The notes under the pieces were generated by a model, which did no database searches, had not been told where the DNA came from, and was given only the letters and a program-made list of their open reading frames with translations. A program made the position numbers and the translations under genes. Source: Nitrospira sp. (GTDB taxonomy: Bacteria > Nitrospirota > Nitrospiria > Nitrospirales > Nitrospiraceae). Taken from it: a stretch of 64,000 nucleotides of DNA. The DNA is taken from NCBI GenBank assembly GCA_020853775.1, contig JADYYH010000054.1:1-64000 (forward strand), read 5' to 3'. Shown here piece after piece: positions 1,853 to 63,763 of the stretch (within the stretch, counting starts at the first letter, position 1; every line of letters begins with the position of its first letter).

Positions 1853-1996
1853 CGGACCTTCATGCCGTCTCTTGCCATGTCATTTTTTTGACCGGATCCC
1901 CATCCCCGGCGTTGGTGTTTCTGACACCCTTCTGATTGTTCCACGTCGCACTGTCTAAATCATCAAGCGATGCAGCGAGTTACTGGATTCCCATAG

Positions 1997-35442: not shown

Positions 35443-35453
35443 CGAGTCGTCGT

Positions 35454-36848: not shown

Positions 36849-36879
36849 CCGTCGTCTCACTTTACCGGGAGCAGGTCTT

Positions 36880-38099: not shown

Positions 38100-38579
38100 A
38101 TGAAGTGTCAGTCGACCAGATTCGGAACTTTCGAAGTGAACGACGACACGTTGTTGGTGTTTCCATCCGGCATTCTGGGATTTCCCGACTGGACCACATA
38201 CGTCATGCTCGACCATGATACGGATGCGCCGTTCAAATGGTTGCAGTGCGTCGAGGAACCTCAGTTGGCCTTCGTCATTCTCGATCCGGCGCTCTTCAAA
38301 CCGGACTACCAGGTGACCATTCCTACGGATGCACTGATCGAAATCCAGAAGCAGGACAACGACGAGTTGTCCGTCGTCACGATTTTGACCATTCCTTCCG
38401 ATGACCCGACCGCGGTGACGGCCAACCTGCGCGGCCCACTGGTCATGAACCACCGCACCAGGCTGTGTAAGCAATTAGTGTTGCCGGAAGATTTGCCGAC
38501 CCGCTATCCGCTCTTTGCCGCTGCCTCCGCCTCGAGCACTCCGTCACCTTCCCGGTCTCTGCAAGTGTCAGCCCGTTAA
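38100..38579 (+). CDS. fliW: flagellar assembly factor FliW
   Basis: A 159-residue protein with FGTFEVNDDTLLVFPSGILG, FPDWTTYVMLDHD, PFKWLQCVEEPQLAFVILDP and LTIPSDDPTAVTANLRGPLV, all characteristic of FliW. It antagonises CsrA by direct binding and is itself sequestered by flagellin, coupling flagellin translation to export. Nine bases after csrA. The flagellin gene itself must lie elsewhere. Confidence 0.95.
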   Translation: MKCQSTRFGTFEVNDDTLLVFPSGILGFPDWTTYVMLDHDTDAPFKWLQCVEEPQLAFVILDPALFKPDYQVTIPTDALIEIQKQDNDELSVVTILTIPSDDPTAVTANLRGPLVMNHRTRLCKQLVLPEDLPTRYPLFAAASASSTPSPSRSLQVSAR

Positions 38580-41529: not shown

Positions 41530-41531
41530 AC

Positions 41532-42782: not shown

Positions 42783-42851
42783 GTCAGAGTTATGCCCAAT
42801 CCTCAAGAAGCCTGTGATGAGAGCAAATAGGGAACGATTTCTGTCCTTTAC

Positions 42852-45093: not shown

Positions 45094-45145
45094 GCAGGGG
45101 AATGGGCCGGCACGAGTGGCATAACCAGAGGGAGCTCGTTCGACT

Positions 45146-46093: not shown

Positions 46094-46123
46094 GTTGAGC
46101 GCAAGGCGGCAGGGAGGGCGAGG

Positions 46124-47194: not shown

Positions 47195-47958
47195 TGGCTC
47201 AGTTTGCCGACTGTGATGTCATCATTCTCTGCGGGGGATTCGGAACCAGGCTGCAATCCGTCGTATCCGACCGCCCGAAACCGATGGCGGAGATTCACGG
47301 CCGTCCGTTCGTGTCGTTGCTGGTCGAACACTTCCTGCGCCATGGCGCGCGCCGTTTCATTTTCAGCACCGGACATTTTGGAGAGATGATCGAGGATTGG
47401 TTTCTCCGCCACCGCGGGCCCTATGAGACGGTGTTCGTGCGTGATCCGGTCCCTCTAGGCACCGGTGGGGCGCTGGCGCATGCCATGCCGCTGGTGCGGA
47501 GCAATCCGTTTCTTCTGCTGAATGGCGATTCATTCTGCGAGATCGATCCGGAACGATTGTTGCGGTTCCATACTCGCAAACGGGCGGGCGCGACGATTGC
47601 CGTCACCCACGACGACACCCGAGAAGACACCGGTGCGGTGGTGTTAGGGGAGGGCGACCGCCTGTTGTCGATGGTTGAAAAGCCACGAAAGCGGACATCG
47701 ACCTATCACAATGCCGGGGTCTATCTGTTCGATCGCGCTGTCACCACGCTGTTTCCGGACCGGCCGGTCTGGTCCCTTGAGCGGGACCTCTTGCCGCGTC
47801 TCGCCACGAAGCAGTGTTATGGCTTCGTCACCGCCAGTCCGCTGTACGACATCGGAACTCCGGAACGCCTGGCGCATTTCCGTGACACCTGGAAGGACAC
47901 ATCGGCCTATTTCCCGACCTCGCTCCTCCATCAGTCACAAGGATCGATGTCACGATGA
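47194..47958 (+). CDS. hddC: sugar-1-phosphate nucleotidyltransferase, HddC-like
   Basis: A 254-residue nucleotidyltransferase. The signature CDVIILCGGFGTRLQSVVSD with RPKPMAEIHGRPF is at the N-terminus, followed by LLNGDSFCEID (metal-binding D) and EKPRKRTSTYHNAGVYLF. Together with the upstream kinase this fits D-glycero-alpha-D-manno-heptose 1-phosphate guanylyltransferase, giving GDP-heptose. The ATG shares its A with the hddA stop (TGATG). The end overlaps the aminotransferase gene by ATGA. Confidence 0.85.
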   Translation: MAQFADCDVIILCGGFGTRLQSVVSDRPKPMAEIHGRPFVSLLVEHFLRHGARRFIFSTGHFGEMIEDWFLRHRGPYETVFVRDPVPLGTGGALAHAMPLVRSNPFLLLNGDSFCEIDPERLLRFHTRKRAGATIAVTHDDTREDTGAVVLGEGDRLLSMVEKPRKRTSTYHNAGVYLFDRAVTTLFPDRPVWSLERDLLPRLATKQCYGFVTASPLYDIGTPERLAHFRDTWKDTSAYFPTSLLHQSQGSMSR

Positions 47959-49175
47959 GCCAGCAGAGAGTGCCGATGCCGCAGACTCTCAGCAGACCGG
48001 CCTTTTCCGCACGAGGCGAACGATTGATCGGGCAGGAAATGTTTCGCGTACTGGATCGCGCGCAAACGCTGGAACGCCAGGGGCATCGGATGTATCACCT
48101 GGAACTCGGCAACCCGCGCATGCCTCCGCCCTCTGAGATTCTTGAGGCGGCCATAGGGGAACTGCAGGCCAGGCAAGTCGGATACGCCCCGATGGCCGGC
48201 GTTCACGAACTGCGCACAGCGGTGGCCGGGCGCTACGCCGCGTTGACCGGGCAACCGATGACGGCCTCCCAGGTCGTCATCAGCCCGGCGAATATGCTCA
48301 TTCACCAGTTTCTGGATATCACCTGCAATCCGGGAGAGCGGGTGGTGCTCTTTACGCCGGCGTTTCCTTCCTATTGGGCGGCGGCGACACACCTCGGGCT
48401 TCAGGTCGTCCCCATTCCTCTGTCGGCGCGCGACGGCTTTCACCTGTCACGGGTCGCCGTTGATTCGGCGGTGGCGGCAAAACCCAGGGCGATTATTGTC
48501 AACAGCGCAAATAATCCGACAGGGGCTGTCTATGACCCGGCGATCCTTCATGAGCTGGTGGCACGTTGCGGAAAGGAAGGGATCTGGCTCCTCAGCGATG
48601 AAACCTATGCCGATCTGGCCTTCGATGGTTCGCACGTTACGCTGGCGGCTCCGCAGGTCGGACATGTCGTCGCCATGTCGTCCTTTTCCAAGGTGTTGTC
48701 CATTCCGGGGTTTCGCAGCGGCTATGCCCTGGCGCATGACGCGGTGATTGCCAAACTCGCACTATCCAATTCCACTTTGTATTCGTGCCTTCCCGGCTTT
48801 ACGCAGGTCGGCTGCGTCGCAGGCTTGTCTGTGCTCGACGCCTATGCGCAGGAGGTCCGCGCTCGCAACCGACGTCTCATCGCGACCTGTCATGATCGTC
48901 TCACTCAGGGAGGACTGTTGCACGGCCACCATCCGGAAGCAGGCTTTTATCTCTTTGTCGATATCACCGGGACCGGCCTCGACGATATGACGTTCTGCCG
49001 ACGTCTGCTGGAAGAACAGCACACGGCGGTGACGCCGGGACGCTGCTTCGGGGACACCTTCGCATCTCATATCCGACTGGCCCTGTGCGGGCAGGAAGAA
49101 GACGTGCTGGAGGGCGTGTCGCGCACCATCGTCTTTGCGCAAAAACTGGGAGGTTGCCGTGTCCAAGCCGCTTGA
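47955..49175 (+). CDS. class I/II PLP-dependent aminotransferase
   Basis: A 406-residue fold-type I aminotransferase. Features: YHLELGNPRMPPP near 47-59, NPTG at 187-190, SDETYADLAFDG near 214-225, and PLP lysine K246 in SSFSKVLSIPGFRSGY. It resembles aspartate/tyrosine-type transaminases rather than sugar aminotransferases. In this operon it could provide an amino acid- or amino-modified glycan substituent, but the substrate is unknown. It overlaps both neighbours (ATGA with hddC, and 17 bases with the radical SAM gene). Confidence 0.85.
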   Translation: MSQQRVPMPQTLSRPAFSARGERLIGQEMFRVLDRAQTLERQGHRMYHLELGNPRMPPPSEILEAAIGELQARQVGYAPMAGVHELRTAVAGRYAALTGQPMTASQVVISPANMLIHQFLDITCNPGERVVLFTPAFPSYWAAATHLGLQVVPIPLSARDGFHLSRVAVDSAVAAKPRAIIVNSANNPTGAVYDPAILHELVARCGKEGIWLLSDETYADLAFDGSHVTLAAPQVGHVVAMSSFSKVLSIPGFRSGYALAHDAVIAKLALSNSTLYSCLPGFTQVGCVAGLSVLDAYAQEVRARNRRLIATCHDRLTQGGLLHGHHPEAGFYLFVDITGTGLDDMTFCRRLLEEQHTAVTPGRCFGDTFASHIRLALCGQEEDVLEGVSRTIVFAQKLGGCRVQAA

Positions 49176-50667
49176 CGTCCTGCTGGTGACGCCACCCAGC
49201 CGGGTCCAGGTCTATCAGGAACTGAGCCGCGACTTCGCCGCCATCGAACCTCCGGTGTGGTCGGGCTTGATCGCCACCTACCTTCGGCAACACAGTTGTT
49301 CCGTGGCGATCCTGGACGCTGAGGCCCAGGGGCTCACGCATCAGCAAACCGCCGAGCAGATCGCAGCCATCGCCCCTAGGTTGGCGGTCTTCGTCATTTA
49401 CGGGCAACAACCATCCGCCTCCACCCAGTGCATGCCCGCAGGCCGGAAGGTCTGCGAGATTCTCAATACCCTCGCCGACATTCCCACACTCGTGATGGGG
49501 ACTCACCCGTCAGCCTTGCCGAAACGTACGTTGCTGGAGGAGCCCTATACGTATGTCTGTCAGGGGGAGGGACCGGCGACCATTCTCGGTCTCATCGTCG
49601 CCTTGCGGGCACCTCAACATTCGCTCCGCGACGTTCCCGGATTGTGGCACATGGAAGAGGGGAATGAGGTCGGCAATGCGCCCGCGCCGCTCCTCACGAA
49701 TCTGGACCGGGACCTGCCGGGGCAAGCGTGGGACCTGCTCGATATGAGCCGGTATCGCGCCCACAATTGGCATTGTTTTGGAAATCCTGAGACACGATCT
49801 CCCTACGCCTCGCTCCAGACCAGCCTGGGATGTCCGTTTACCTGTTCGTTCTGCTGCATCAATGCGCCGTTCACCACACCGATGTTACGTGTCTGGAGCC
49901 CTGACAATGTCATCGGCCAGATCGACCGCCTGGTGCATGAGTACGGCGTCTCGAATATCAAAATTCCGGATGAGATGTTCGTCTTGAACCGGCGCCACGT
50001 CATCGGCATTTGCGACCGGATCATCGAACGGGGTTATCACCTGAACATCTGGGCCTATGCGCGCGTCGATACGGTGCAGGATGAAGTGCTGGAGAAGCTG
50101 GCGCGCGCCGGATTTACGTGGTTGGGGCTCGGCATCGAGTCCGGCAGTCAACATGTCCGTGACGGGGTCGAGAAGGGCCGCTTCGGGGAACGAGAGATCG
50201 TCGCCACGGTGGGCCGCATCCGTTCCCACGGCATCCATGTTGCGGCGAATTACATCTTCGGCCTACCGGACGACACCCTGGAGAGCATGCGCACCACGCT
50301 CGACTTAGCGCTGACGCTCAATACCGAATGGGCAAATTTCTATTGCGCCATGGCCTATCCCGGCTCGGCGTTGTATAGCCTGGCGAAACAGAAGCGATGG
50401 ACATTACCGGACGATCAGGGCGGCCCTGGCTGGATCGGCTACTCACAACATGCCTATGAATGCCTGCCGCTGCCGACCGATAGTCTCACGGCCACCCAAG
50501 TCCTGTCTTTCCGCGATCACGCGTTCCTGGAGTACTTCGGCCATCCCGGTTATCTGACCATGTTGCAACGAACGTTCGGCCCACGCGTCGTCGCTCACGT
50601 AGCGGAGATGTGCCGGCATCAGGTGCGCCGTCGCCATCACGATCAGGCGGCCAATCGGGCGGCGTAG
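49159..50667 (+). CDS. B12-binding-domain radical SAM protein (first of two)
   Basis: A 502-residue protein. The N-terminal half (about 1-150) is a cobalamin-binding-like Rossmann domain (DVLLVTPPSRVQVYQELSRD) though no clear DxHxxG is seen. The radical SAM core (about 215-430) has the iron-sulfur motif C225-x3-C229-x2-C232 (LGCPFTCSFCC) and GLGIESGSQHVRDGVEKG. Members of this group methylate or rearrange unactivated carbons. GTG at 49159 with GGGAGG at about 49148-49153 is preferred over an upstream frame. Likely modifies a sugar or lipid in this glycan pathway. Confidence 0.87.
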   Translation: MSKPLDVLLVTPPSRVQVYQELSRDFAAIEPPVWSGLIATYLRQHSCSVAILDAEAQGLTHQQTAEQIAAIAPRLAVFVIYGQQPSASTQCMPAGRKVCEILNTLADIPTLVMGTHPSALPKRTLLEEPYTYVCQGEGPATILGLIVALRAPQHSLRDVPGLWHMEEGNEVGNAPAPLLTNLDRDLPGQAWDLLDMSRYRAHNWHCFGNPETRSPYASLQTSLGCPFTCSFCCINAPFTTPMLRVWSPDNVIGQIDRLVHEYGVSNIKIPDEMFVLNRRHVIGICDRIIERGYHLNIWAYARVDTVQDEVLEKLARAGFTWLGLGIESGSQHVRDGVEKGRFGEREIVATVGRIRSHGIHVAANYIFGLPDDTLESMRTTLDLALTLNTEWANFYCAMAYPGSALYSLAKQKRWTLPDDQGGPGWIGYSQHAYECLPLPTDSLTATQVLSFRDHAFLEYFGHPGYLTMLQRTFGPRVVAHVAEMCRHQVRRRHHDQAANRAA

Positions 50668-50692: not shown

Positions 50693-52531
50693 ATGATCAA
50701 GGTCGCAGACTTCATCATCAATACGCTGGCCGACCGTGGCATCGACAAAATGTTCGTCGTGTATGGCGCGGCCAACGGCGATTTGATCGATGCGTTTACC
50801 CGCACCGCCGCGACCCAATATGTCGCCGTCATGCATGAACAGGCCGGCGGGTTTGCCGCTGAAGCCTATGCCAAGGTGAAGGGCATTCCCGGGGTTGCCA
50901 TTGCGACCAGCGGCCCGGGCGGAATGAATCTCCTCACCTCGATGGGCAATTGCTTCTACGATTCCATCCCCTGCGTCTTTCTTACCGGACAGATTAACTC
51001 GCGGTTCCTCCGCCCCGATCCGTCGATCCGGCAAATCGGGTTTCAAGAAACGGACATTGTGGCGATGGCCGCGCCGGTGACCAAATACGCCAAGATGATC
51101 CTGAACCCTGAAGACGTACGGTTCGAGCTCGAAAAAGCCCTGTGGATGTGCCGGGAGGGCCGGCCCGGACCGGTGCTGTTGGATATTCCGCTCAATGTGC
51201 AAAAAGCCCTGGTCGATGCGAAACAGCTGATGGGGTTCGAGCCGCCCGCGGCGATGCGTTTCGATCTCACGGTCGTGGACCAGCAGATCGCCAGCTTGAT
51301 CAATGACCTTCAACAGGCGGAACGCCCGGTGATTCTCGTTGGCGGGGGCGTGCGCCTGGCCGATGCCCAAGACGATGTCCGGGCTTTGGGCCGCCGTTTG
51401 AACGTGCCCTGTTTTCCGACCTGGAACGCGCTGGATGTGATCAGTTCGGACTATGAGAACTACGGCGGGCGGGTGGGGACCTATGGTGGCGCCGGCCGTA
51501 ACTTCGGTATTCAGAACAGTGATCTGCTGCTGTCCATCGGAAGTCGCATCTCCGGACGCATCACCGGCGGCAACGTTCAAAGCTTCGCCCGGCAGGCCAA
51601 GAAGTACCTGGTCGAGATCGATCCGGCCATGGTGCAGCGGAAGTTTCAACAAGTACCGTTCGACGTCAACATCCTCTGCGACGCGAAAGCATTTACGCAG
51701 CGCTTGCTGATCGCACTCGATCGACGCAGCAAACCCTTGCCGGACTTCTCAGCCTGGACGAGCCGCGTCATGGAATGGAAACGGCAGTACGACCCCGTGC
51801 GGCCGGAATTCTTCGCGCAACGCGAGCGCGTGCATCCGTATGCGTTCATGCGGCGCTTGTCCGAGAAAATGGGCGCGACCGATATCCTGGTTGGCGACTG
51901 CGGCGGCAATATCGTCGTCAGCAACCATGCCTTCGAGACCAAGTACGGCCAGCGCAACCTGACGAACAACGGCAATTCTCCCATGGGCTTCTCCTTCGCC
52001 GGCGCGATGGGCGCCTGGTTTGCCGATCCCACGAGACAAGTCGTCTGCACCATCGGCGACGGCGGCTTCAACATGAACCCGCAGGAATTGCAGACGTTCG
52101 TGAACTATGGCATCAAAGTCAAAACGTTCATCCTGAACAACCACATCTACGGCATTACCAAGGCCTATCAGGAAACCAATTTTCAGGGACGCGCCGAGGC
52201 CTGCGGTCCGAAGGGATACAACCCGCCGGACTTCCTCAAGATCGTCCAGGCCTACGGCATCAAGACGGTCGCCATCGCGAATCATGCCGAGATGGACGCC
52301 AAGATCGAGGAAGTGCTGCGGTTCGACGGGCCGGTCGTCTGCGATGTGGACATGCACGAGTTCCACACCTACGAGCCGAGGATCTTCGGTTGGAAGACGC
52401 CCATCGAAGATATGTATCCCTATCTGCCTCGCGAAGAATTCCGCGCCAACATGGTCATCGAACCGGCCGAAGGATGGATGAATCCCGAGTATCCCGACGT
52501 GGTGCGCCGGACGGATCAGTCCCAGCCGTAG
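50693..52531 (+). CDS. thiamine-diphosphate enzyme of the acetolactate synthase family
   Basis: A 612-residue ThDP enzyme. N-terminal pyrimidine domain with catalytic E49 (AVMHEQAGGFAAEAYAK), middle domain, and C-terminal pyrophosphate domain with GDGGFNMN at 455-462 followed by ILNN. A C-terminal tail with GWKTPIEDMYPYLPREEF is unlike housekeeping acetolactate synthase. Lying in a glycan operon beside a 3-dehydrase-like PLP enzyme, it recalls YerE, which adds a two-carbon branch to a 4-keto-3-deoxy sugar. That function is inferred from context. ATG at 50693 follows AAAGGAG; an ATG eight codons earlier overlaps it. Confidence 0.85.
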   Translation: MIKVADFIINTLADRGIDKMFVVYGAANGDLIDAFTRTAATQYVAVMHEQAGGFAAEAYAKVKGIPGVAIATSGPGGMNLLTSMGNCFYDSIPCVFLTGQINSRFLRPDPSIRQIGFQETDIVAMAAPVTKYAKMILNPEDVRFELEKALWMCREGRPGPVLLDIPLNVQKALVDAKQLMGFEPPAAMRFDLTVVDQQIASLINDLQQAERPVILVGGGVRLADAQDDVRALGRRLNVPCFPTWNALDVISSDYENYGGRVGTYGGAGRNFGIQNSDLLLSIGSRISGRITGGNVQSFARQAKKYLVEIDPAMVQRKFQQVPFDVNILCDAKAFTQRLLIALDRRSKPLPDFSAWTSRVMEWKRQYDPVRPEFFAQRERVHPYAFMRRLSEKMGATDILVGDCGGNIVVSNHAFETKYGQRNLTNNGNSPMGFSFAGAMGAWFADPTRQVVCTIGDGGFNMNPQELQTFVNYGIKVKTFILNNHIYGITKAYQETNFQGRAEACGPKGYNPPDFLKIVQAYGIKTVAIANHAEMDAKIEEVLRFDGPVVCDVDMHEFHTYEPRIFGWKTPIEDMYPYLPREEFRANMVIEPAEGWMNPEYPDVVRRTDQSQP

Positions 52532-52549: not shown

Positions 52550-54175
52550 ATGAACGTCTTGTTGCTGTATCCCACATGGACCGGTGCCTACGGACTGTTC
52601 GGCCATTTCGCCCGCCGGAACTCAACCTGGCCGCCGCTGAACCTTGCGCTCCTGGCCGCGATTGCCGAACGTCATGGCCACAATGTCACGATCCTCGACG
52701 GTGAATCCGAGCAGGTGCCGTTGGATGACATGGTCAAGCGCGCGGTGGCAATGAAGCCCGACCTCATCGGCTTTACCGCGACAAGCCCGTTTTTCCATCT
52801 GAGCAAAACGGTCGCGGAAGGCATCAAGCGTCTGGCTCCGGAGATCCCCATCGCCGTGGGTGGTCCTCATATCACCATCATGAAGGAGCGGGCGTTGCTA
52901 GGCTGCTTCGACTATGCCTTTATCGGCGAAGCGGAGGAGTCCTGGCCGCAATTCCTGAATGCCTATGAGCAACACAAGGACCTGTCGACGGTGCCTGGCA
53001 TCATGTATCGACGGAACGGAGAACTCGTCTCGACCGGCCAGCCGGCCGACATCACGGATCTCGACGCCTTGCCGATTCCTGCGCGGCATCGACTGCCGAT
53101 GTCCCGGTACAAGCTGGGGACCCTCCGCGGACGTCTGCCGTTCACTTCGATTCAAACCATGCGCGGCTGCCCCTGGAAATGTATTTTCTGCGCCTCGGAG
53201 GCGTTGAAGACCACCGAGATGCGTGTGCGTTCTCCGCGATCGGTCGTCAATGAGATGAAGCAAGTCGTGGAGATCTTCGGCACCCGGCATTTCTATATCG
53301 TCGACGATGTGATGACGCTCTGGAAAGACCACATTCTGGAGATCTGTGACTTGATCGATCAGGAAGGCTTGCAGATTACCTTCGAAGGCAGCACCAGGGC
53401 CAATCTTGTCGAAGAAGAGGTGATTGCCCGTCTCGTCAAGAGCGGCCTCATCCGCTTGTCGTTCGGACTCGAAACCGTCGACCCCGAAATACGGCGGACG
53501 ATGAGAAAGCAGGTCCCCCTGGAGCATTACGTGAGAGCGAACGGGATCTGTAACGCCTACGGAGTTGAGGCGTTGAATTCCGTGATGATCGGATTACCAG
53601 GGGAGACCCGCGAGACGGTGCGGGCGACGCTGAAATTCCTGCGGCAAGCCAGAGAAGTCAAACAGGCCAATTTTGCCATCGCGGTGCCCTATCCGGGGAC
53701 CGAGTTTCACAAACTCGCGGTGAACGGTGAGAAGGGCGTCCGACTGATGACCCAGGACTTCTCCGAATACCGGCGCTATGGGTCGGCGGTCACCACGGTG
53801 GGGGAGTTGACGCCGCATGACCTGATCGACCTTCAGAATGAAGGATTCGTCAGCATCTATTCTGCACCCTGGCGCTGGATTCCCATGTTGCAGAAACACG
53901 GAGTGATCGGTGGTTCACTCATGCTGGTTCGTGTGGCACGCCTGCTGTCAAAAAAGTTGTTCTCCGGCCATGGGCAAGCCTCACAGGAGCAGCTGATCAG
54001 TCTGGGAGATGGCGCGTTCGGTCGCATTCAGGAATCGGCCATGAGCCCACAGCCCGTTGGAGTCGATTCGACCGGCTCCAGCAGCACGACTCCGTTGTTG
54101 ACTATCGCCTCCGCATCACGAGCGGGGGTCGCGCCGGCCGGGCATTTCGGTCATCCCACGAACCCCAATGGCTAG
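52550..54175 (+). CDS. B12-binding-domain radical SAM protein (second of two)
   Basis: A 541-residue protein. Cobalamin-binding-like N-terminal domain (about 1-140) with LLLYPTWTGAYG, LIGFTATSPFFHLS and IAVGGPHITI. The radical SAM core (about 195-400) has C207-x3-C211-x2-C214 (GCPWKCIFC), LIRLSFGLETVDPEIRRTM and MIGLPGETRETV. The tail after about 450 is polar and low in complexity. It is distinct from the first radical SAM protein (49159). Both could install methyl or other carbon modifications on a sugar or lipid. ATG follows GAGGTG. Confidence 0.88.
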   Translation: MNVLLLYPTWTGAYGLFGHFARRNSTWPPLNLALLAAIAERHGHNVTILDGESEQVPLDDMVKRAVAMKPDLIGFTATSPFFHLSKTVAEGIKRLAPEIPIAVGGPHITIMKERALLGCFDYAFIGEAEESWPQFLNAYEQHKDLSTVPGIMYRRNGELVSTGQPADITDLDALPIPARHRLPMSRYKLGTLRGRLPFTSIQTMRGCPWKCIFCASEALKTTEMRVRSPRSVVNEMKQVVEIFGTRHFYIVDDVMTLWKDHILEICDLIDQEGLQITFEGSTRANLVEEEVIARLVKSGLIRLSFGLETVDPEIRRTMRKQVPLEHYVRANGICNAYGVEALNSVMIGLPGETRETVRATLKFLRQAREVKQANFAIAVPYPGTEFHKLAVNGEKGVRLMTQDFSEYRRYGSAVTTVGELTPHDLIDLQNEGFVSIYSAPWRWIPMLQKHGVIGGSLMLVRVARLLSKKLFSGHGQASQEQLISLGDGAFGRIQESAMSPQPVGVDSTGSSSTTPLLTIASASRAGVAPAGHFGHPTNPNG

Positions 54176-54196: not shown

Positions 54197-57100
54197 ATGA
54201 CATCACGTCCACCCACGAAAGTTCTTCTCTTGCAGCTGGAGTTTCCCACGTGGAAACAAGCCCGCGCGTGGACGTATCCGGCCTGTTTTGGAGTCGCTGA
54301 AGGCTTACGAGCGAGCGGTGTGGAATGTGTCACACTGCCCCTCATTGCCGATCCGCCCTATTCCAGCGCCGCCTGGCTCACGCACATGAAGCGGATCATC
54401 AACGGCCAACGTTTTGACCAGGTGTGGGTGTGGCTGGTTCATGCACCTCTCGATGACGCGATTCTCAATTGGTTGAGCGAGTTGGCGCCGATCCGGGTCG
54501 GCATCATCATGGAATCGTTGCAGTACAGCGAAGACGATTACGCCTGGGCCCCTCATCTTCGAGCGCGCCAGGGATTCGTTGAACAACAGGCCCGTGCGTT
54601 GACTCACGTGCTCGTTCCCGATGAATGTGATGTCGAGCGAACGGCTGCACGCACCGGCGTTCCTGCTCTCTGGTGGCCGCCGATGGTGCCTGAACGTTTC
54701 ATCAGCACCCCGTCGAGCCCTGCCGCTCACCGGGTCGGCGTCTTCCACGGCGTTCCCTACGGTCCCCGTGAACAATGGATCCATCGGATCCATCATCCCG
54801 CACTGAAATCTCGTCTGACCTTTGCCCGTTCATCGGCTCCAACGTTGTTTCAACAACTGTTCGATCGGCTGCAGCAATCGGCCATCCAGCGTCTTGCCAC
54901 GCCTGTCGGGATGTCTGCCGGTGAGCTCACTCACTATACGACGATGTGGCAAGAGCTGCGCGAAGGCGAATTCACAGAGTGGATGGCCCAATTGCCACAA
55001 TGGGCGGCGATCGTCAATCTCCCCAGTCTGGCAAGATTTTTCGGGGGGCGCGTCTTTGAAGGGATCGCTGCCGGTCGCCCGATGGTGTCGTATGCGGTAC
55101 CAGGCCATCCAATGAACAACGGGTTGTTTGTGGAAGGGGAGGAGATCCTCTATTTTTCGCCAAGCCGGCCGGAGTCTTTAGCGGAAGTCCTGGACCGTTT
55201 ATTATCGAACGACGCATTGGCGGCACGACTGGCCGGTAACGCGCAGCGCAAACTTCAGACCTACCACACCAGCGAGCGACGACTTGCGGAGACACTCGTT
55301 TGGATTCAGTCGGGAACCAAGCCTGTCTATGGTGAACGAGAGACCGGTGCCGCCTACGCACTGTCTTCCGCAAAGGCGGGATCAGCCTGGGCAAATGTTC
55401 CGGGCCACGCCGGTTCCACTATTGATCCGCAATACCCGGCAACCGCCGGACGGACGGACACCACAATCTTTGTCCTGACGGTCGGCGACCCTGCCTATCC
55501 CGCCTGCAAGGCGGCCGTGGATGCGCAGCAGGGTGGACCCTTTCACGTCGAGATCATCCGCAATGTCGCACCCTTCAGCGCGGCGGCCCAACGCATGATC
55601 GCAGACTGTCGAACTGAGTTCTTTATCCAGGTCGATGAGGACATGATCCTCAACTCCGACGCGGCGTCGAAGATGGCGGACCTGATGCGCCGTGCCCCGG
55701 CCGACATCGGCATGATCTGTTTTCATCTCTACGATGCGGATCGCGCCTGTCGGATCCAGGGCATCAAGATCTATCGCACGGCGGCCATGAAGCCCTTCGC
55801 CTTCCAGAATGTCAAAGCGAGCGAGATGGATCTGCTCGAACAGATGGGCCAACGAGGTGTCCGGTGGGTGCTGCATCCGGAGGTCAGGGGTCGGCATGGG
55901 ACGCTGTATACGCCGGAGACCATCTATCGCCGCTATAAGACGATGTATGAGAAAGACATCCGGCAGTGGAATACCCTGACCTCGGATATCCGTCGGAAAG
56001 CCGACCAGTTTCGAGCGACAGGAGACGTGCTTGCGCTCTTTGCACTGCTCGGGGCCGCGCATGGAATCATCGAAGGACCGCGATCGGCTGACCGAGAAAA
56101 GGATGCGCGGGCGTATGGATTGGACGAACTGGAGATCTTCGCCCGGCTCTTCCAGCAAACGCCGCCCGCAAGCCAACCTTATGATCCCAAGCGAAGCGGA
56201 ACGTCCGTATCCAATAGCCCGTTAGCGCCCGAGGAGGTGCGTTGGTTGGGGGAGACGACGTTCGAGAAGGCATCCGAGAAGCAGGCACGGCAGGGTGCTG
56301 CCTCGGCACCGCAGGCGCAGCGGCAGCCTGCCGCGCGAATTCTCATTATCACCCCGTATTTTTGGCCCTCCGTTGGCGGTGTCGAAAAAGTGGCGGAAAG
56401 CTTAGCCATCGGCTTGCAGTCACGTGGACATGCCGTCGAGGTGGCGACTTATGCGCTCACTGAGCGCTCGGCGACATCGCATCGTGGCATTCCCATCATT
56501 GATCTCACATTCCCGGCCGACTTTGAAACGACCAGTCCCTATTCCATGCTGGAAGTGAAACGCCTGATCGAGTCGGGGCAATACGGCTGCTGTATTCTCC
56601 TGGGCGCCCCGCTGCATCTGATGTTTTATGCCGCGCTCGCCATTCCGAAGGATCGTCCGGTGCGGTTCATTCTTCAGCCGACCATCAACAAAGAGATTGC
56701 TGAATCGTTGGAGGGAAGCGAGCAGGGGCGCACCATGTTGTCTCAATTGGGGCAACGCGTGAACGCCGTCGTCACGTTCGGCGGCGATGGATACGATGAA
56801 CAGTTCTTTCGAGAACGCCGCATTCCGACCTGTGTGATTCCGAACGGCACCCCGGCCCTGGCGCCCAAGGCGGATTTCAGGCAACGCTACGGGATTGCCC
56901 GTGAAACCTTCCTCGTGATCCACCTCGCCAATCTCTACAAGGTCAAAAATCATCTGGGATTACTCGATTCCTTGGACAACCTGCCAAGCGACATTCAACT
57001 CGTTTTGATCGGGAATGACACCCATGAAACCGAGTATGTCGAGGCCGTGAAGGCCCGCCTCGCCGCACGACCGGATGTCCGGCTGCTTGCAGGATTGGAC

Positions 57101-60100
57101 TCCGCCGATGTCGCCTCCGCCCTGGCGGCGGCCGATCTCGTGGTGTTGGCTTCCCATGCCGAAGTCTCGCCCCTCTGCCTGCTGGAAGCGATGAGTGTCG
57201 GTCGGCCCTGGCTCGCGACGCCGGATTGCGGGACTGCGACGGAACATGCAGGCGGACTGGTGCTTCCCTTGTCCCAATTCGCCGCTGCAGTACGGCTGCT
57301 GAAGAGCCATCCGGAGTTCTACGCCGAGCTGGGACAACTCGGCCGTGAGAATTGGGCTCAGTCGCATGACTGGGCGGCCGTCCTGACGGCTTGGGAGGAC
57401 TTGATCGAAGGGCGGCCGGTCTCGCATTCATTTGCCACACCTGTCTCCATTGCCGAACGACGAGAGGCTCTCCGCGAACAATTCCGTCGTCTTCTGGCAC
57501 AACAAGGCACTGTCGAAGCGTCGCCTGCATCACCGCTGCAGATCGAAACGAAAGGGGTCGTGATGGACGGGTTGAATCGTGCACCGCTGAACTCGGCAGC
57601 CCACCACGCCGTGCCGAACTCCGCGCCAACGCTACAAGAACAGAAACAGCAGGATCAGTTTTACATCGACATGTTTGTGAATAGCTGCGGCTGGTCATCC
57701 CCCGGGCCCAATCATGACGAGGCGGCTCGGTGGAGCAAAATCGCGGCCTTTCTGGAGTATCTGCTCCGTCGCGTGCGTCAGGCAGATCCCCAGCGACAAC
57801 TGCGCATGCTGGATGTCGGCTGTGGGCGCGGCTGGCTCACGAATTTGGCAACGGCGTATGGCACATGCGAGGGCATCGAACCGGTAGCCGGGGTGATCGA
57901 ACACGCGCGACGGTTGTTTCCTCACCTGCGATTTGAAGCAGGCACGGCGCAAAGCGTGCTCAGCCGACCGGATTTTGCTCCGTACGATGTCATTCTGTGT
58001 TCTGAGGTCATCGAACATATTCCCCACGGCCGGAAAGAAGGCTTTGTCGCCGAACTCGCCATGCTCCTGAAGCCGGATGGCTACGTCATTCTGACGACAC
58101 CCCGCGGTGAAATGTGGGAACAGTGGAAAACCATCGCGCCACCTTGTCAACCGATCGAGGATTGGGTCACGGAAGCGCAACTGCGCGCCATCTTCACAAC
58201 GCAAGGGTTTTGCGAACTCGGCCTGGAACGAGTGCACTGCGAAATTCCCTCGCTGCGATATGTTCCCGCACCGACCCCGGCTGATTTCAACAAACTGAAG
58301 CTGGTTCCGATCTATCAGATATGGGCCTGCCAGCGTCGGGGCCCCACTCCCGTGCCTGCGTTCACGCGCCCGCCGATGGTCTCCGTCATTGTGCCCACCT
58401 ACAATCGGCCGGACCGCCTGCAGGTGGCCCTCTCCAGCATCTTGGCCCAGACCTATCAGGATTTTGAGATTATCGTCGTCAACGACGGCACGGTCGATGT
58501 GAGTGAGGTGGTCTCGCCGTTGAACCGGGACGGTCGTATTACCACGATCCGGCACGATCACAACCGTGGACTGGCCGCGGCTCGCAATACCGGCATCCGG
58601 GCCGCCAAAGGCACGTACATCGCATACCTCGATGACGACGACACCTACCTCCCGGACCATCTGCAGACCCTCGTTACGGCTCTACAGAGCGGCGAGCACA
58701 AGGTCGCATACACAGACGCCTGGCGTATCCACGAAGTGCGACAGGGCGACCAATACGTGGTGACCGGACAGGATATGCCGTACTCCCACGATTTCAACTG
58801 CATCGATCTCCTGTTGTGCAACTATTTCCCGGTGCTCTGTGTCATGCATGAGAAAGCGTGTCTTGAACAGGTCGGCGTCTTCGATGAATCCCTGTTCGCG
58901 CATGAAGATTGGGATCTCTGGATCCGGATGGCGACGATCTATCCGTTTCTCCACATCAAGCACACCACGGCGGCATTCACCTGGCGTCGCGATGGCTCGT
59001 CGATGACCAGCAGCACCAGCGACACCTACCGGCGCACGACCGAGATCATCTACAGAAAATACCGGCCGTATGCGGAACGCATCGCCGGGGTTCTGGAGGC
59101 GCAGCAAAAGAAATTGGACGGCATGCGATCCGACGCCAAGGCCAAGACATTCGATTGCTCCATTATCATTCCGGTGTGGAACAACCTGGCCCTCACCACC
59201 CAGTGTTTGACGGCTCTGGCGGAGGTCACGCAAGGAGTCACCTATGAAGTCATCGTGGTGGACAACCACTCGACGGACGACACCCCGGCGTTTCTCGCCG
59301 GACTCGGCGGCGATGTCACGGTCATCACCAATGAGGACAATCTCGGGTTTGCCAAGGCCTGCAATCAGGGGGCTCAGGCGGCCAAGGGCGAATACCTGGT
59401 ATTCCTCAACAACGACACGATTCCTCAGGCCGGGTGGCTGAGCGCCCTTGTTGACGAGGTGAAGGCCCATTCCGACGTGGCGGTGGTGGGAAGCAAGCTG
59501 TTGTACGAAGACGGCACGATTCAACATGCGGGAGTCGCATTCTCCCGTGAGTTCCTGATGCCATACCACATGTATCCGGGAGTGCCGGCCAATGCGCCCA
59601 TGGTCACGCGCCGCCGTGAGCTGCAATGTGTCACTGCCGCCTGCATGCTCATCCGCCGGCAGGTCTTCGCGCAGGTCGAGGGATTCGACGAGGCGTACAG
59701 AAACGGATTCGAAGACGTCGATCTGTGTCTCAAAATCGGTGAAAAGAACTGGAAGATCGTCTACCAACCGCAAAGCACCGTCATTCATCTGGAGAGCCGA
59801 ACGCCCGGACGGAAAGCACATGAGGACGAGAACACCTCCCGTTTCCGGGAGCGATGGGGCCACTGCTGGTGGATTACGGACGAAGACCGGCTGCACTTTG
59901 AAGACGGCTATTCCGTCCACACCCACCTCAAAGATGGCCTTCTTGGGTACACGCTGTACCTGATTACCGACCCAGCCGTTCAAACGGAACGGGCACTGAT
60001 CGCAGATCTGCAGCGAGCGACGGCCCTCAGGGATCAGGACAAGATGGTCGCTTTGCTGAAACGCATCGATCAATGGCCCGCCGATGCATGGATTCTTCGT

Positions 60101-60766
60101 TGGAGTGCCTCACTGAGCGAGAGCATCGGCCACCCAGAACTGGCCCTTCAATTCTGGAAACGGGTGCTGCCGCTCAAAAACGATCCTCAAGCCAACCTGG
60201 CTCTGGCGAAGCACGCGTTGGAGACAGGGGCCATCAAAGAGGCGAATGATCACCTGACGGCGCTGCTCCAGGCTGAACCTTCTCATGGAGAAGGATGGCT
60301 GCTGCGCGGCATTCTCGCCATGCAGCTCAACGCGTATCGCGATGCGGAGCAGGCGTTCGAACAGGCGAAACAATCCGGCGCGAATCCGCGGAAAGCCACG
60401 CTCGGTCTAGTCATGGCGGCGATGGGGGAAAACCGGACTGAGGCCGCCTGGTCACACGTGGCGAGGCTCTGCGCGGATCATCCTGATGATGAAGAATGTA
60501 TGCACTGGATGCTCAAATGCGGCACGCTGCTCCAGCGTTGGGACGCCCTCGCGTCGCGACTGTCCTCGTTTGTCGTCCGCAATCCGGCCAATACTGCTAT
60601 GCGATTTGCCCTGGCGGGAGTACTGTTGAGAGCAGGCCGTCGAGCGGATGCGCAGCGGGAATATGATTGGTTACGCGCCATGGTGCCGACGTTCGAAGGC
60701 ATGGACGAGTTGGGGAAACAATTGGCCGGATCAGAACGCCCCTTGGTACCGAATCATGCCGCATGA
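54197..60766 (+). CDS. giant multi-domain glycosyltransferase (GT1/4-like, GT-A, GT4, methyltransferase, two GT2, TPR)
   Basis: A single frame of 2189 residues. Modules in order: a GT-B-like domain (about 5-385, with RFFGGRVFEGIAAGRPMVSY); a GT-A-like domain (about 422-610, QVDEDMILNSD); a GT4 domain (about 714-1085, ITPYFWPSVGGVEKVAESLA and AEVSPLCLLEAMSVGRP); a SAM methyltransferase (about 1140-1380, LDVGCGRGW at 1205-1213); a GT2 domain (about 1394-1650, VSVIVPTYNRPDR, DDDD near 1478); a second GT2 (about 1652-1905, IIIPVWNN, LNNDT near 1737); and TPR-like repeats (about 1930-2189). It could build several linkages of one glycan processively, perhaps on flagellin. ATG at 54197 follows AAAGG; a GTG six codons upstream is an alternative. 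Its stop lies inside the start of the GT9 gene. Confidence 0.9.
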   Translation: MTSRPPTKVLLLQLEFPTWKQARAWTYPACFGVAEGLRASGVECVTLPLIADPPYSSAAWLTHMKRIINGQRFDQVWVWLVHAPLDDAILNWLSELAPIRVGIIMESLQYSEDDYAWAPHLRARQGFVEQQARALTHVLVPDECDVERTAARTGVPALWWPPMVPERFISTPSSPAAHRVGVFHGVPYGPREQWIHRIHHPALKSRLTFARSSAPTLFQQLFDRLQQSAIQRLATPVGMSAGELTHYTTMWQELREGEFTEWMAQLPQWAAIVNLPSLARFFGGRVFEGIAAGRPMVSYAVPGHPMNNGLFVEGEEILYFSPSRPESLAEVLDRLLSNDALAARLAGNAQRKLQTYHTSERRLAETLVWIQSGTKPVYGERETGAAYALSSAKAGSAWANVPGHAGSTIDPQYPATAGRTDTTIFVLTVGDPAYPACKAAVDAQQGGPFHVEIIRNVAPFSAAAQRMIADCRTEFFIQVDEDMILNSDAASKMADLMRRAPADIGMICFHLYDADRACRIQGIKIYRTAAMKPFAFQNVKASEMDLLEQMGQRGVRWVLHPEVRGRHGTLYTPETIYRRYKTMYEKDIRQWNTLTSDIRRKADQFRATGDVLALFALLGAAHGIIEGPRSADREKDARAYGLDELEIFARLFQQTPPASQPYDPKRSGTSVSNSPLAPEEVRWLGETTFEKASEKQARQGAASAPQAQRQPAARILIITPYFWPSVGGVEKVAESLAIGLQSRGHAVEVATYALTERSATSHRGIPIIDLTFPADFETTSPYSMLEVKRLIESGQYGCCILLGAPLHLMFYAALAIPKDRPVRFILQPTINKEIAESLEGSEQGRTMLSQLGQRVNAVVTFGGDGYDEQFFRERRIPTCVIPNGTPALAPKADFRQRYGIARETFLVIHLANLYKVKNHLGLLDSLDNLPSDIQLVLIGNDTHETEYVEAVKARLAARPDVRLLAGLDSADVASALAAADLVVLASHAEVSPLCLLEAMSVGRPWLATPDCGTATEHAGGLVLPLSQFAAAVRLLKSHPEFYAELGQLGRENWAQSHDWAAVLTAWEDLIEGRPVSHSFATPVSIAERREALREQFRRLLAQQGTVEASPASPLQIETKGVVMDGLNRAPLNSAAHHAVPNSAPTLQEQKQQDQFYIDMFVNSCGWSSPGPNHDEAARWSKIAAFLEYLLRRVRQADPQRQLRMLDVGCGRGWLTNLATAYGTCEGIEPVAGVIEHARRLFPHLRFEAGTAQSVLSRPDFAPYDVILCSEVIEHIPHGRKEGFVAELAMLLKPDGYVILTTPRGEMWEQWKTIAPPCQPIEDWVTEAQLRAIFTTQGFCELGLERVHCEIPSLRYVPAPTPADFNKLKLVPIYQIWACQRRGPTPVPAFTRPPMVSVIVPTYNRPDRLQVALSSILAQTYQDFEIIVVNDGTVDVSEVVSPLNRDGRITTIRHDHNRGLAAARNTGIRAAKGTYIAYLDDDDTYLPDHLQTLVTALQSGEHKVAYTDAWRIHEVRQGDQYVVTGQDMPYSHDFNCIDLLLCNYFPVLCVMHEKACLEQVGVFDESLFAHEDWDLWIRMATIYPFLHIKHTTAAFTWRRDGSSMTSSTSDTYRRTTEIIYRKYRPYAERIAGVLEAQQKKLDGMRSDAKAKTFDCSIIIPVWNNLALTTQCLTALAEVTQGVTYEVIVVDNHSTDDTPAFLAGLGGDVTVITNEDNLGFAKACNQGAQAAKGEYLVFLNNDTIPQAGWLSALVDEVKAHSDVAVVGSKLLYEDGTIQHAGVAFSREFLMPYHMYPGVPANAPMVTRRRELQCVTAACMLIRRQVFAQVEGFDEAYRNGFEDVDLCLKIGEKNWKIVYQPQSTVIHLESRTPGRKAHEDENTSRFRERWGHCWWITDEDRLHFEDGYSVHTHLKDGLLGYTLYLITDPAVQTERALIADLQRATALRDQDKMVALLKRIDQWPADAWILRWSASLSESIGHPELALQFWKRVLPLKNDPQANLALAKHALETGAIKEANDHLTALLQAEPSHGEGWLLRGILAMQLNAYRDAEQAFEQAKQSGANPRKATLGLVMAAMGENRTEAAWSHVARLCADHPDDEECMHWMLKCGTLLQRWDALASRLSSFVVRNPANTAMRFALAGVLLRAGRRADAQREYDWLRAMVPTFEGMDELGKQLAGSERPLVPNHAA

Positions 60767-61949
60767 GCCCGCGCCGGAGCATCGCGATCTGGTGATACAG
60801 ATGGCTCGACTGGGTGATCTGGTGCAAACGCTTCCGGCCATCGAATCGTTGCACGAAGCCTATCCGGAACGCACGCTGGATATCCTCTGTGCGGCACCGT
60901 TGACAGTGATCCTTGCCGGAGCCGGCCATATCGGCCGGGTGATTCCCTGGGACGGGACACAATGGCAAGCATGGGCCAATGGCTGGCAGGCGAATCCGAC
61001 TGCGACCCTGCAGGCCATGCAGAGCTATATCGCGTCGCTTGGCGAGATGACCTATGAACGGGTGTATCCGCTGAACCAGCACGCACGAAGCCGCCTTATG
61101 ACGCAGCTGTTTTCAAGCCATTCCTTCCACGGTCACGATCAAGACGACATTGAGACGGCCATGCGTCCATGGAGGCAGCATCTCCGGCAAGTGGCTCAAG
61201 AACGGGGGGCGAACCGCATTCATCTCGCTGACGTCTGGTGCGGCATGTGCGGAGTTCGGCCGCGAGGGCAGGCGCCGTTGCTGGCGCCACCGGTCGTCGA
61301 ACTCCCAGAGGATCTTGCCGAGATCGGCGAGCGCCCTGGGCTCTGGATTGCGCTGGCCACCGGCGCAGGGGAGGCGGATCGTTGCGTCGCGCCGGCCGTC
61401 TGGCGCCAATGGATTCGTGAATTCCTGGCGCAGACTCAGGACGGGCAGGTCGTGCTGATCGGAAGCGGCACGGAGCGCGAATCCGCGCAGGCCATCGTCG
61501 AGGCGCTTCCCACGTTGCTCCACGGCCGTATCTGGGATGCAACCGGTCGCACGACCCTGTCTCAATTGATGCGTCTGCTTCATAGATGCCAATGGGTCAT
61601 CGGAGCCGATACCGGTCCGCTCCATCTCGGCACGCTGGTGGGCACTCGAGCCCTGGGTTGGTATTTTTCACGCGCCCGGCTGCACGAAACCGGTCCCTAC
61701 GGCGAGGGGCATTGGGTCTATCAGCATGCCACGCCGGCGCAACCTCAACAGTGGCCGATCATGGAAAGCCTCGCGCTGATGTGCGGCGACCAGGGTCGTC
61801 ATACGACCGATTGGACCGTCTGGAGAAGTCGCATGGATCGATGGGGAGCCTATTTTGATGACGGCTCGGGAAACAACGGTGTCGAGCACTCGCGTGCCGA
61901 CATCTGGCGAGCCTGTGCACCGGACCTTTGCGAATCGATGGCGGCATGA
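60756..61949 (+). CDS. glycosyltransferase family 9 (heptosyltransferase-like)
   Basis: A 397-residue GT-B protein of the ADP-heptose:LPS heptosyltransferase family: VIQMARLGDLVQTLPAIESL at the N-terminus and CQWVIGADTGPLHLGTLVGT near the C-terminus, where the donor binds. Family GT9 transfers heptose. It overlaps the end of the giant glycosyltransferase by 11 bases and has no clear ribosome binding site, suggesting translational coupling. With the HddA/HddC-like genes it supports a heptose-containing glycan. Ends in ATGA overlap with the next gene. Confidence 0.88.
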   Translation: MPHEPAPEHRDLVIQMARLGDLVQTLPAIESLHEAYPERTLDILCAAPLTVILAGAGHIGRVIPWDGTQWQAWANGWQANPTATLQAMQSYIASLGEMTYERVYPLNQHARSRLMTQLFSSHSFHGHDQDDIETAMRPWRQHLRQVAQERGANRIHLADVWCGMCGVRPRGQAPLLAPPVVELPEDLAEIGERPGLWIALATGAGEADRCVAPAVWRQWIREFLAQTQDGQVVLIGSGTERESAQAIVEALPTLLHGRIWDATGRTTLSQLMRLLHRCQWVIGADTGPLHLGTLVGTRALGWYFSRARLHETGPYGEGHWVYQHATPAQPQQWPIMESLALMCGDQGRHTTDWTVWRSRMDRWGAYFDDGSGNNGVEHSRADIWRACAPDLCESMAA

Positions 61950-63763
61950 ATATTCTTCACGACAACCTCGCCCGCCTGGCCTCACGCCATCAGGACCTGG
62001 CGACAGGGGTGAAGACCGCAACCGGCGGCGTGCTCACGATTGAACCGGCTCGAACCGGGGTTCCCTCGGCACGTCGATCCGGCCGCTGGATTCATAGTGC
62101 CTACGATCCCCTCCGTGAAGCGCAGACCTGGGCGGATACCCATGCAGCGGCCTGCCAATCGGGAGAAATGGTCGTCGTGGCCGGGGTCGGGCTCCTCTAT
62201 CATGTCGAGGCGCTGCGAAACAAATTGCCTCCCGATGTCTCTCTGGCTGTTGTCATTCCCAATCTCGATGAATTCCACGATGCTCTTGCAGCTCGCTCCT
62301 TCGGGGCATGGAGCGAGTCTGTGCTCTGGCTGCCAGGAGCGCCGGCTGAGATTGCCGCGACATTGACGAAGCTCGGCCGACCGCTACGCTGCCTGTCCTA
62401 TGCGCCGGCCACCCTGGCCGATGCCGATTTCTATCGGGCCCTCGAAGACGCGTTACGACGGGGCATTGCCCGCCAGCGCGGCGGCCAGTTAACGATTGCC
62501 CTCGTGGGACCGATTTATGGAGGATCGCTCCCGATCACCGGCTATGTGAAACGGGCACTGGAAACCCTTGGTCACAAGGTCCGGTGGATCGATCACAGCG
62601 TGCATGCGGCGAGTTATGACGCGATGGGAACCCTGAAGGACCAGCGCAACCGGCAAATGATGCAAGGGCGGATGGCCGAAGTTTTGAGCCAATGGACCCT
62701 GGCCAGCCTCGCAGAGTCGCCTCCCGACCTCGTGCTCTCGATGGCGCAGGCGCCCATGACGCTGCCGGTGCTCGAACATCTCCGGAAGAAGAAATTTCTG
62801 ACGGCGATGTGGTTCGTCGAAAACTACCGGCATTTGACCTACTGGCGGCAGATGGCCCCGGGATACGAATTTTGGTTTGTGTTCCAGCAGGGAGCCTGCC
62901 TGGAGGCGTTCCGCCAAGCCGGCGCGCGGCAGGTGAATTACCTCCCGATGGCGGCCGATCCAGAACTGCATGGTCCCATGTCTTTATCGGAGGCAGACCG
63001 CCGCACATTCGGCTCCGATGTATCGTTTGTGGGCGCAGGATACGCCAATCGCCGGAAGCTGTTTCCCGCGCTGCTCCATCAGCCCTGGTCGTTCAAACTC
63101 TGGGGCAATGAGTGGGAGGGAGCCGACGACCTCCGTGCCGTTCTCCAATTGGAAGGGGCCCGGATCGACACGGCCACCTGCATGAAGGTGTTTAACGCGA
63201 CGGCGATCAATCTGAACCTGCATTCCACCACCGGCACAGGCCTGGATCCCCAAGCTGATTTTGTTAACCCACGCACGTTTGAACTGGCTGCCTGTGGAGC
63301 ATTTCAGTTGGTGGACCATCGCTCGGAGCTGCGCCAGTTTTTTAGTGAGCAGGAGATGGTGTCGTTCAAGGACTTTGGTGACGTTCCCGGGTTGGTTCAC
63401 CACTGGCTGCATGATTCCGACGCCCGTCAGGCCGTGGCCGATGCCGCTCGCGCCCGTGTGCTGAGTGAGCACACCTACGTGCATCGGATGCGGGATTTGC
63501 TGGGACACATCGGCTTATCGCAACCGGATCGTGTCGGCTCCGTGCTGCGAGGGGAACGTCAGCAGGAAGCCTTGTTGGCGCGTTGCGCCGATGATCGTCC
63601 CCTGGAGGCTCTCCTCAAAGACTGCCCGAGCGGGCAGCGAATCGAACTGAAAGACGTGGCTGCCCGGATTCGCAGCAAGGGTCCGACCTCGACGCTCAAG
63701 CGTGAAGAATTGATGGTGCTGATGTTGGATGAATACCGGAGCGAGACACGCGACCTGTTATGA
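61946..63763 (+). CDS. CgeB-like glycosyltransferase
   Basis: A 605-residue protein. The C-terminal half (about 175-520) has LVGPIYGGSLPITGYVKRAL, the CgeB-type segment VSFVGAGYANRRKLFPALLH, and the donor-site region DFVNPRTFELAACGAFQLVD typical of the CgeB/DUF3880 glycosyltransferase group. The first 150 residues are less clear and may bind the acceptor. ATGA overlap with the GT9 gene before and the one after. CgeB-like proteins are often found in flagellin or spore-surface glycosylation clusters. Confidence 0.82.
   Translation: MNILHDNLARLASRHQDLATGVKTATGGVLTIEPARTGVPSARRSGRWIHSAYDPLREAQTWADTHAAACQSGEMVVVAGVGLLYHVEALRNKLPPDVSLAVVIPNLDEFHDALAARSFGAWSESVLWLPGAPAEIAATLTKLGRPLRCLSYAPATLADADFYRALEDALRRGIARQRGGQLTIALVGPIYGGSLPITGYVKRALETLGHKVRWIDHSVHAASYDAMGTLKDQRNRQMMQGRMAEVLSQWTLASLAESPPDLVLSMAQAPMTLPVLEHLRKKKFLTAMWFVENYRHLTYWRQMAPGYEFWFVFQQGACLEAFRQAGARQVNYLPMAADPELHGPMSLSEADRRTFGSDVSFVGAGYANRRKLFPALLHQPWSFKLWGNEWEGADDLRAVLQLEGARIDTATCMKVFNATAINLNLHSTTGTGLDPQADFVNPRTFELAACGAFQLVDHRSELRQFFSEQEMVSFKDFGDVPGLVHHWLHDSDARQAVADAARARVLSEHTYVHRMRDLLGHIGLSQPDRVGSVLRGERQQEALLARCADDRPLEALLKDCPSGQRIELKDVAARIRSKGPTSTLKREELMVLMLDEYRSETRDLL

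Follow-up and report, generated by a model that had tools for sequence, protein, structure and literature searches.

In OGT, TPRs lie ahead of a GT-B domain. In chondroitin polymerase K4CP and heparosan synthase, which produce repeat polymers and are not known to be linked to flagellin, two glycosyltransferase (GT) domains stand in tandem. GmaR of Listeria, a flagellin O-GlcNAc transferase and antirepressor, carries a GT2-like domain followed directly by TPRs; at 637 residues, it has a single GT and, in addition, an antirepressor domain (PMC9638930). FlmG of Caulobacter is described as modular, with an N-terminal TPR-containing flagellin-binding domain and a GT domain (PMC7591256); its single GT module belongs to the GT-B superfamily, and it is tied to the pseudaminic acid pathway. 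WsaE of Geobacillus stearothermophilus joins two GT domains to an N-terminal methyltransferase within a single protein (PMC2943079) and serves an exported S-layer glycan chain, and neither TPRs nor module exchange are described for it in the accessible part of that source.

The gene reported here lies in a 64,000-nucleotide stretch of Nitrospira DNA (the window) and encodes a 2189-residue protein. As in GmaR, a GT2-like domain (GT2b) precedes the TPRs; however, the chain ahead of GT2b contains four further GT modules and a methyltransferase, and the protein ends after the TPR helices without an antirepressor C-terminal domain. The first-pass annotation had drawn a parallel to O-GlcNAc transferase, but the OGT order is not found here and GmaR is the closer parallel in layout. 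The FlmG/OGT (GT41) type was ruled out, as the TPRs are C-terminal and follow a GT-A-fold GT2. The methyltransferase-GT2a-GT2b portion has the WsaE arrangement of a methyltransferase and two GT domains in one chain, and K4CP and heparosan synthase are the top matches over GT2a-GT2b in both sequence and fold. Among the open-access PMC titles listed, none covers this Nitrospira system, and no biochemistry was found for any family member. We consider that the protein is probably a modular flagellin O-glycan synthase, soluble and located in the cytoplasm.

Module organization

The frame runs to a stop at 60766 without interruption from either ATG 54197, with AAAGG just 5' of it, or GTG 54179; the residues are counted from the ATG. 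The gene and its modules are as follows.

54197..60766, + strand: multi-module glycosyltransferase, 2189 residues, defined by open frame, domain mapping and homologues
54197..55351, + strand: module 1, GT-B-like (Glyco_trans_1_2); E288 invariant (27/27); swapped between lineages
55454..56146, + strand: module 2, divergent GT-A/GT2-like; QVDEDM motif; D480 and D482 invariant (27/27)
56330..57496, + strand: module 3, GT4, GT-B fold; E989/E997 invariant (27/27)
57644..58351, + strand: module 4, SAM methyltransferase; DVGCGRGW motif
58358..59131, + strand: module 5, GT2a; DDDD and HEDWDLW motifs; nearest solved relatives are sugar-to-sugar transferases
59132..59836, + strand: module 6, GT2b; LNND and FEDVDLC motifs; leans toward polypeptide glycosyltransferases; constant end
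59837..60763, + strand: TPR tail; ~7 helix pairs in the model; constant end

The order from the N- to the C-terminus is GT-B, divergent GT-A, GT4, SAM methyltransferase, GT2a, GT2b and TPR tail. Pfam matches cover residues 274–366 (Glyco_trans_1_2), 726–1046 (GT4), 1192–1338 (Methyltransf_23), 1396–1640 and 1654–1870 (both GT2), and ~1997–2102 (TPR); Pfam and the model combined place GT2b at residues 1646–1880 and TPR helices up to ~2177. The earlier order and count (five GT-like modules, one methyltransferase and a TPR tail) were right, with the GT-A-like module (residues ~420–650) being weak by sequence: PF00535 matches the window copy with an E-value of 0.0072 and 21 of 28 homologues, at best with 1.5e-5. 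Part of this module is of low confidence in the predicted structure, and its profile gave nothing convincing against solved structures (four weak matches). GT4 entries occupy the fold lists for the N-terminal half, which leaves modules 1 and 2 barely tested in this way.

The catalytic motifs recognized at the outset stand. Every module is under purifying selection, with dN/dS of 0.03–0.11 between the window copy and five near relatives; the linkers between modules gave 0.18–0.72 with the same relatives. The strongest Kyte-Doolittle (KD) hydropathy window (2.0) falls within GT4; therefore, no membrane anchor is suggested.

The same full layout occurs in seven further genomes at 73–91% identity, among them a single contig of 4,229,538 bases (G015) whose full-length copy is 90% identical. 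These independent genomes rule out an assembly or frameshift artefact, which the first-pass annotation had wished to see checked; nothing was found in favor of such an origin, and it can be dismissed with near certainty.

Constant and variable parts

Within the genus, 28 of 29 genomes carry a homologue, and at family level 112 of 175 do; the one genus member without the gene (G009) also lacks flagellin. Of 110 loci, 106 were counted, and four without the GT2b-TPR end (L038, L040, L041, L042) were dropped. The constant part comprises GT2b-TPR together with the genes that follow it: GT9, CgeB-like, GT9, a small unknown gene and then fliC. Between the window's genus and others, GT2b is ~59–73% identical to that of the window, and the TPR tail ~32–51%.

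Everything upstream of GT2b is variable. About a dozen layouts were distinguished, with swaps and gains located at the linkers, and variability increases from the C-terminal toward the N-terminal end. The tree over loci contains 102 rows, 98 of them labeled by layout by hand, with some labels taken from contig-cut or split genes. Homologues with both the same and split module orders were found, as the first-pass annotation had proposed to look for. Proteins of the L096 and L093 types are set apart mainly by a GT-A/GT4 cassette of two modules. A short form of 1051 residues has methyltransferase-GT2a-GT2b and TPRs without the front modules (L095, L100, L101), and natural split forms break either between the methyltransferase and GT2a (GT-B to methyltransferase, then GT2a onward; L264, L131) or between GT4 and the methyltransferase (L219).

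In two loci (L059/L060), the GT-B module is only 43–44% identical to that of the window and has its closest kin in another genus, while the other six modules are 76–93% identical. This divergence and kinship rule out the idea that the gene is passed on whole, as an unchanging block. Grouping of the eight same-genus full-layout rows as one clade was rejected in the GT-B tree (p-AU 5e-40), a quick tree in which the clade was chosen after the identities had been seen. The anatomy of the fusion agrees with the earlier reading; the constant end with front modules swapped between genomes goes beyond what a single sequence could reveal.

Linkage to flagellin and alternation with Maf

The gene is linked to flagellin both by position and by exchange with Maf. 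In 91 of 106 loci, a fliC gene on the same strand follows the core at a distance of 5196–6453 bp (91/91 where found), and 14 of the 15 remaining stretches stop short of that distance. In the window, the flagellar setting is marked by flgK/flgL-like genes (35352–37770) and fliW.

38100..38579, + strand: fliW

Full-length flagellin was identified in 119 genomes; a partial match in G073 was set aside, as were genomes whose matches were all of the weaker, FlgL type. It is short in 106, of which 103 have the gene and three a contig-cut copy, and long in 13, all of which have Maf and lack the multi-module gene. Above the cut-off, Maf and the multi-module gene never occur together (0/112 genomes with the gene). 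All four long-flagellin loci inspected have an MptE-like (Maf) gene fused to TPRs upstream of fliC, fused to a methyltransferase as well in two of them, with a catalytic domain unrelated to the Nitrospira multi-module protein. The protein itself is not a Maf flagellin glycosyltransferase, given these counts and the lack of a PF01973 (MptE-like) match in the window's genome (G000). A link to flagellin is strongly supported by this position and exchange, and flagellin, whose direct glycosylation was raised in the first-pass annotation, is the likely acceptor.

Relatives of the two GT2 modules

Profiles were built from every second sequence (54 rows of 105 for GT2a and 38 of 73 for GT2b, plus the window). 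Against solved structures, the GT2b profile matched the GT domain of GmaR (22ao, E 3.2e-8), ppGalNAc-Ts and SunS, none of which was found with GT2a at E<=1e-3. The GmaR similarity is a lean rather than proof, because it spans ~106 residues and better scores go to chondroitin synthase (4.8e-21) and several other GT2 proteins. In the fold comparison, nearly all matches listed for GT2b alone were ppGalNAc-Ts (best Z 23.2, rmsd 3.3, 242 aligned), and GmaR was not among the matches listed. GT2b, unlike GT2a, therefore appears to lean toward protein-glycosylating enzymes including GmaR.

Neighboring genes

43903..47958, + strand: activated-sugar genes (DegT aminotransferase, NAD-dependent epimerase, HddA-like kinase, HddC-like nucleotidyltransferase)
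47955..49175, + strand: class I/II aminotransferase
49162..50667, + strand: B12-binding radical SAM enzyme rSAM1
50693..52531, + strand: ThDP-dependent, acetolactate-synthase-like enzyme, probably serving donor-sugar synthesis
52550..54175, + strand: B12-binding radical SAM enzyme rSAM2, a separate gene here
60756..61949, + strand: GT9 (heptosyltransferase-like), constant neighbor
61946..63763, + strand: DUF3880 plus Glyco_trans_1_2 (CgeB-like) glycosyltransferase, constant neighbor

The GT9a and GT9b queries each match 103 of 106 loci and the CgeB-like query 101, with the GT9 queries cross-hitting where a stretch is cut. None of the 14 loci whose protein has a Methyltransf_24 fused at its N-terminus contains rSAM2, within the limited upstream reach of the stretches. 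No module was always paired with one donor gene, since rSAM2 accompanies several GT-B types. No transporter (ABC export) was found among the annotated neighbor genes.

Discussion

In the proposed mechanism, the constant GT2b-TPR unit would act like GmaR, its TPR superhelix gripping unexported flagellin while GT2b places a sugar on it or acts right beside that step. GT2a and the GT4, GT-A-like and GT-B-like modules may add further sugars, one of which the methyltransferase would alter; the upstream genes would supply unusual donors, and the constant GT9, CgeB-like and GT9 proteins would contribute shared residues. It is plausible that the fusion assembles and caps a whole oligosaccharide. Recombination in disordered linkers could swap N-terminal modules between lineages, and the outer glycan would therefore differ by species while the flagellin-facing end is conserved.

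A bolder version, which we offer tentatively and hold to be possible rather than probable, is an assembly line of exchangeable parts. Starting at the flagellin-bound C-terminus, the modules would work one after another toward the outside, and linker recombination would swap, add or drop modules together with donor genes, giving rise to glycan types on Nitrospirales flagella. The glycan might replace the D2/D3 surface domains missing in short flagellins, the long-flagellin relatives using Maf.

The first sugar could instead be attached by the constant GT9a, CgeB-like or GT9b protein, with the multi-module protein extending that glycan and its TPR tail scaffolding a complex rather than recognizing flagellin. 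These downstream genes are as constant as GT2b-TPR, and within the constant end the TPR tail is less well conserved than GT2b. However, GT2b leans toward polypeptide glycosyltransferases, the GT2-TPR order is that of GmaR, and the replacing Maf genes likewise bear TPRs, which makes this arrangement rather unlikely. We give about the same weight to a fusion that merely co-expresses independent enzymes and has no mechanistic role or order. Split forms with differing breakpoints fit such a fusion, but the fused state prevails across the layouts and a bag of unrelated fusions does not predict variability rising from the C- to the N-terminus.

Considerably less probable is a surface polysaccharide or lipopolysaccharide product, with the place beside fliC a relic of operon history. 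Giant GT2a-GT2b tandems in other phyla (Brocadia, Kuenenia and others) mostly lack fliC in the retrieved DNA, and HddA/HddC-like genes also work in LPS and S-layer heptose pathways. Against this stand the strict position upstream of fliC, the joint absence of gene and flagellin from G009, and the exact alternation with Maf. A modular flagellin O-glycan synthase remains the preferred reading.

With a dozen or so natural layouts built on one constant end, the rule relating modules to sugars, and their order, can be tested through flagellin masses among Nitrospira cultures. This would reveal how bacteria diversify a surface glycan within one gene, and would tie flagellin size to glycosylation machinery in nitrogen-cycle bacteria.

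Domain Architecture and Sequence Conservation

The reading frame at 54197–60766 (plus strand) is uninterrupted and encodes a 2189-residue protein. The first-pass annotation had described at least five glycosyltransferase (GT)-like modules, a methyltransferase and TPRs; Pfam assigns a GT-B-like module, GT4, methyltransferase, two GT2 modules (GT2a and GT2b) and TPRs. Module 2 (GT-A-like) has a weak sequence signal, but an invariant DxD and a GT2 match in 21 of 28 homologues. The further claim of recognisable catalytic motifs in each module was borne out: modules 1–3 retain their key catalytic residues in 27/27 sequences, and modules 4–6 in 64 or 65 of 65. The AlphaFold2 model has a mean pLDDT of 88 for the C-terminal half and 78 for the N-terminal half, with values below 50 at residues 382–419 and 686–711.

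Between the window copy and five near relatives, dN/dS is 0.03–0.11 in all modules, and linker values span 0.18–0.72, with a single one undefined. For a sixth relative (locus L059), the modules give 0.05–0.11, except for 0.25 in the exchanged GT-B module of L059, where dS is close to saturation.

Genomic Context

Homologues (E≤1e-60) are found in 28 of the 29 genomes of the window's genus, Nitrospira. The gene is preceded by fliW and donor-sugar genes, and followed, partly outside the window, by genes for a GT9, a CgeB-like protein, a second GT9, an unknown 180-residue protein and a 275-residue flagellin (fliC). Two features of this region are:

38689–42806, minus strand: large hybrid sensor kinase and HD-GYP-type protein (named by eye from the translation), separating fliW from the glycan genes
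G000:C54:65480–66022 (L030:5480–6022): the 180-residue protein between the last GT9 and fliC, kept in 92/106 loci, with no clear Pfam match

The GT2b-TPR end is present in 106 of 110 fetched stretches, on which the linkage counts are based. fliC lies downstream on the same strand, at 5196–6453 bp, in 91/106 loci, and 14 of the other 15 stretches stop before that distance. The true exception is L097 (genome G137), in which the second GT9 is cut short. Nine genomes contain the gene and no full flagellin match; among seven such loci read (G026, G088, G104, G105, G114, G137 and G041), all except G137 stop near the gene. The same end and downstream block up to fliC were found in 6/6 loci read from another family of the order (L259–L264).

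Constant C-terminal End and Variable Front

GT2b-TPR persists over the 106 loci, while the front modules vary.

Layouts of the multi-GT protein (labels assigned by hand; Pfam scan on representatives only)
Full form of the window: 28 loci, window included
N-terminal Methyltransf_24: 14 loci
Without the GT-A/GT4 cassette: 15 loci
Additional GT2: 4 loci
Radical SAM and GT2, fused: 11 loci
FkbM- or MT24-type with GT2: 11 loci
GT-B and GT2: 6 loci, including N. moscoviensis
GT2 and one or more GT4: 2 loci
Minimal 1051-residue form: 3 loci
Three further, smaller groups

The search for homologues with the same or split module order, proposed in the first pass, returned both, the split versions being L131, L264, L217 and L219. 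The 12 layout labels require at least 35 changes on the GT2b-TPR tree (98 labelled rows; least possible, 11), and layouts differ between well-supported sisters (e.g. L048/L049, L092/L132 and L111/L118). L096 and L093 share ~90% identity over the methyltransferase to TPR region and ~80% in GT-B; L093 lacks only the GT-A/GT4 cassette, and the join falls in a linker. L059 and L060 have the window's layout, yet carry a GT-B module of another lineage.

In L137 and L147, from another genus, the protein carries a radical SAM module fused at its front; such an enzyme is separate in the window. A Nitrospirales contig (L234:8017–18516) contains a 3500-residue frame with three consecutive GT2b-TPR units, followed by a GT9. 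Genome G008 has a second, different copy (L042, contig G008:C57), which shares an identical GT-B module with G023 (L045). As G008 is listed as 8% contaminated, this copy is probably foreign.

Alternation with Maf

Among 175 genomes of the family, 112 contain the gene and 16 a Maf domain (MptE-like flagellin glycosyltransferase) above cut-off, without overlap; in G113, the gene is accompanied by a sub-cut-off Maf match. Because the genomes are related, a Fisher value for this alternation cannot be read as a fair probability. Genera g15 and g17 each include both states. Full-length flagellins were read in 119 genomes. The gene is present in 103 of the 106 with short frames (239–341 residues), the other three having a contig-cut gene end. 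The 13 with long frames (626–787 residues) all have Maf and never the gene; in 11 of them, Maf and flagellin are 2–5 kb apart on one contig. In 4/4 long-flagellin loci read in detail (L253, L254, L255 and L256), an MptE-like TPR protein, two with a methyltransferase also, is encoded upstream of fliC.

Comparison with Known Systems and Likely Function

Known related systems are the GT-TPR flagellin transferase GmaR of Listeria (PMC9638930), the TPR-GT protein FlmG of Caulobacter (PMC7591256), the methyltransferase-GT-GT protein WsaE of Geobacillus stearothermophilus (PMC2943079) and Maf (PMC11339370). No description of five GTs and a methyltransferase in one protein, with a GmaR-like end and module-wise exchange beside fliC, was found in the open-access literature searched. 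Large size and multiple GTs alone do not set this protein apart, since giant GT2-tandem proteins are present in Brocadia, Syntrophales and others. On a Nitrospinae contig (L248:13957–14775), a GT2a-GT2b giant lies ~2 kb ahead of a flagellin; therefore, the link of such giants to flagellin may extend beyond the phylum.

GT2b-TPR has the same domain order as GmaR. Profile matches of GT2b include GmaR, polypeptide GalNAc transferases and the peptide glycosyltransferase SunS, although general GT2 enzymes score higher. In the fold comparison, the listed matches that cover GT2b by itself are almost exclusively polypeptide GalNAc transferases. GT2a has a different set of matches: PglI-type, chondroitin synthase and TarS/TarP enzymes. 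GT2b is therefore the best candidate for sugar transfer onto protein. Alternatively, the glycan may be started by one of the three downstream enzymes (GT9, CgeB-like and GT9), which are as constant as GT2b-TPR. In the proposed scheme, flagellin would be the acceptor, GT2b would act first, and the outer modules would act after it.
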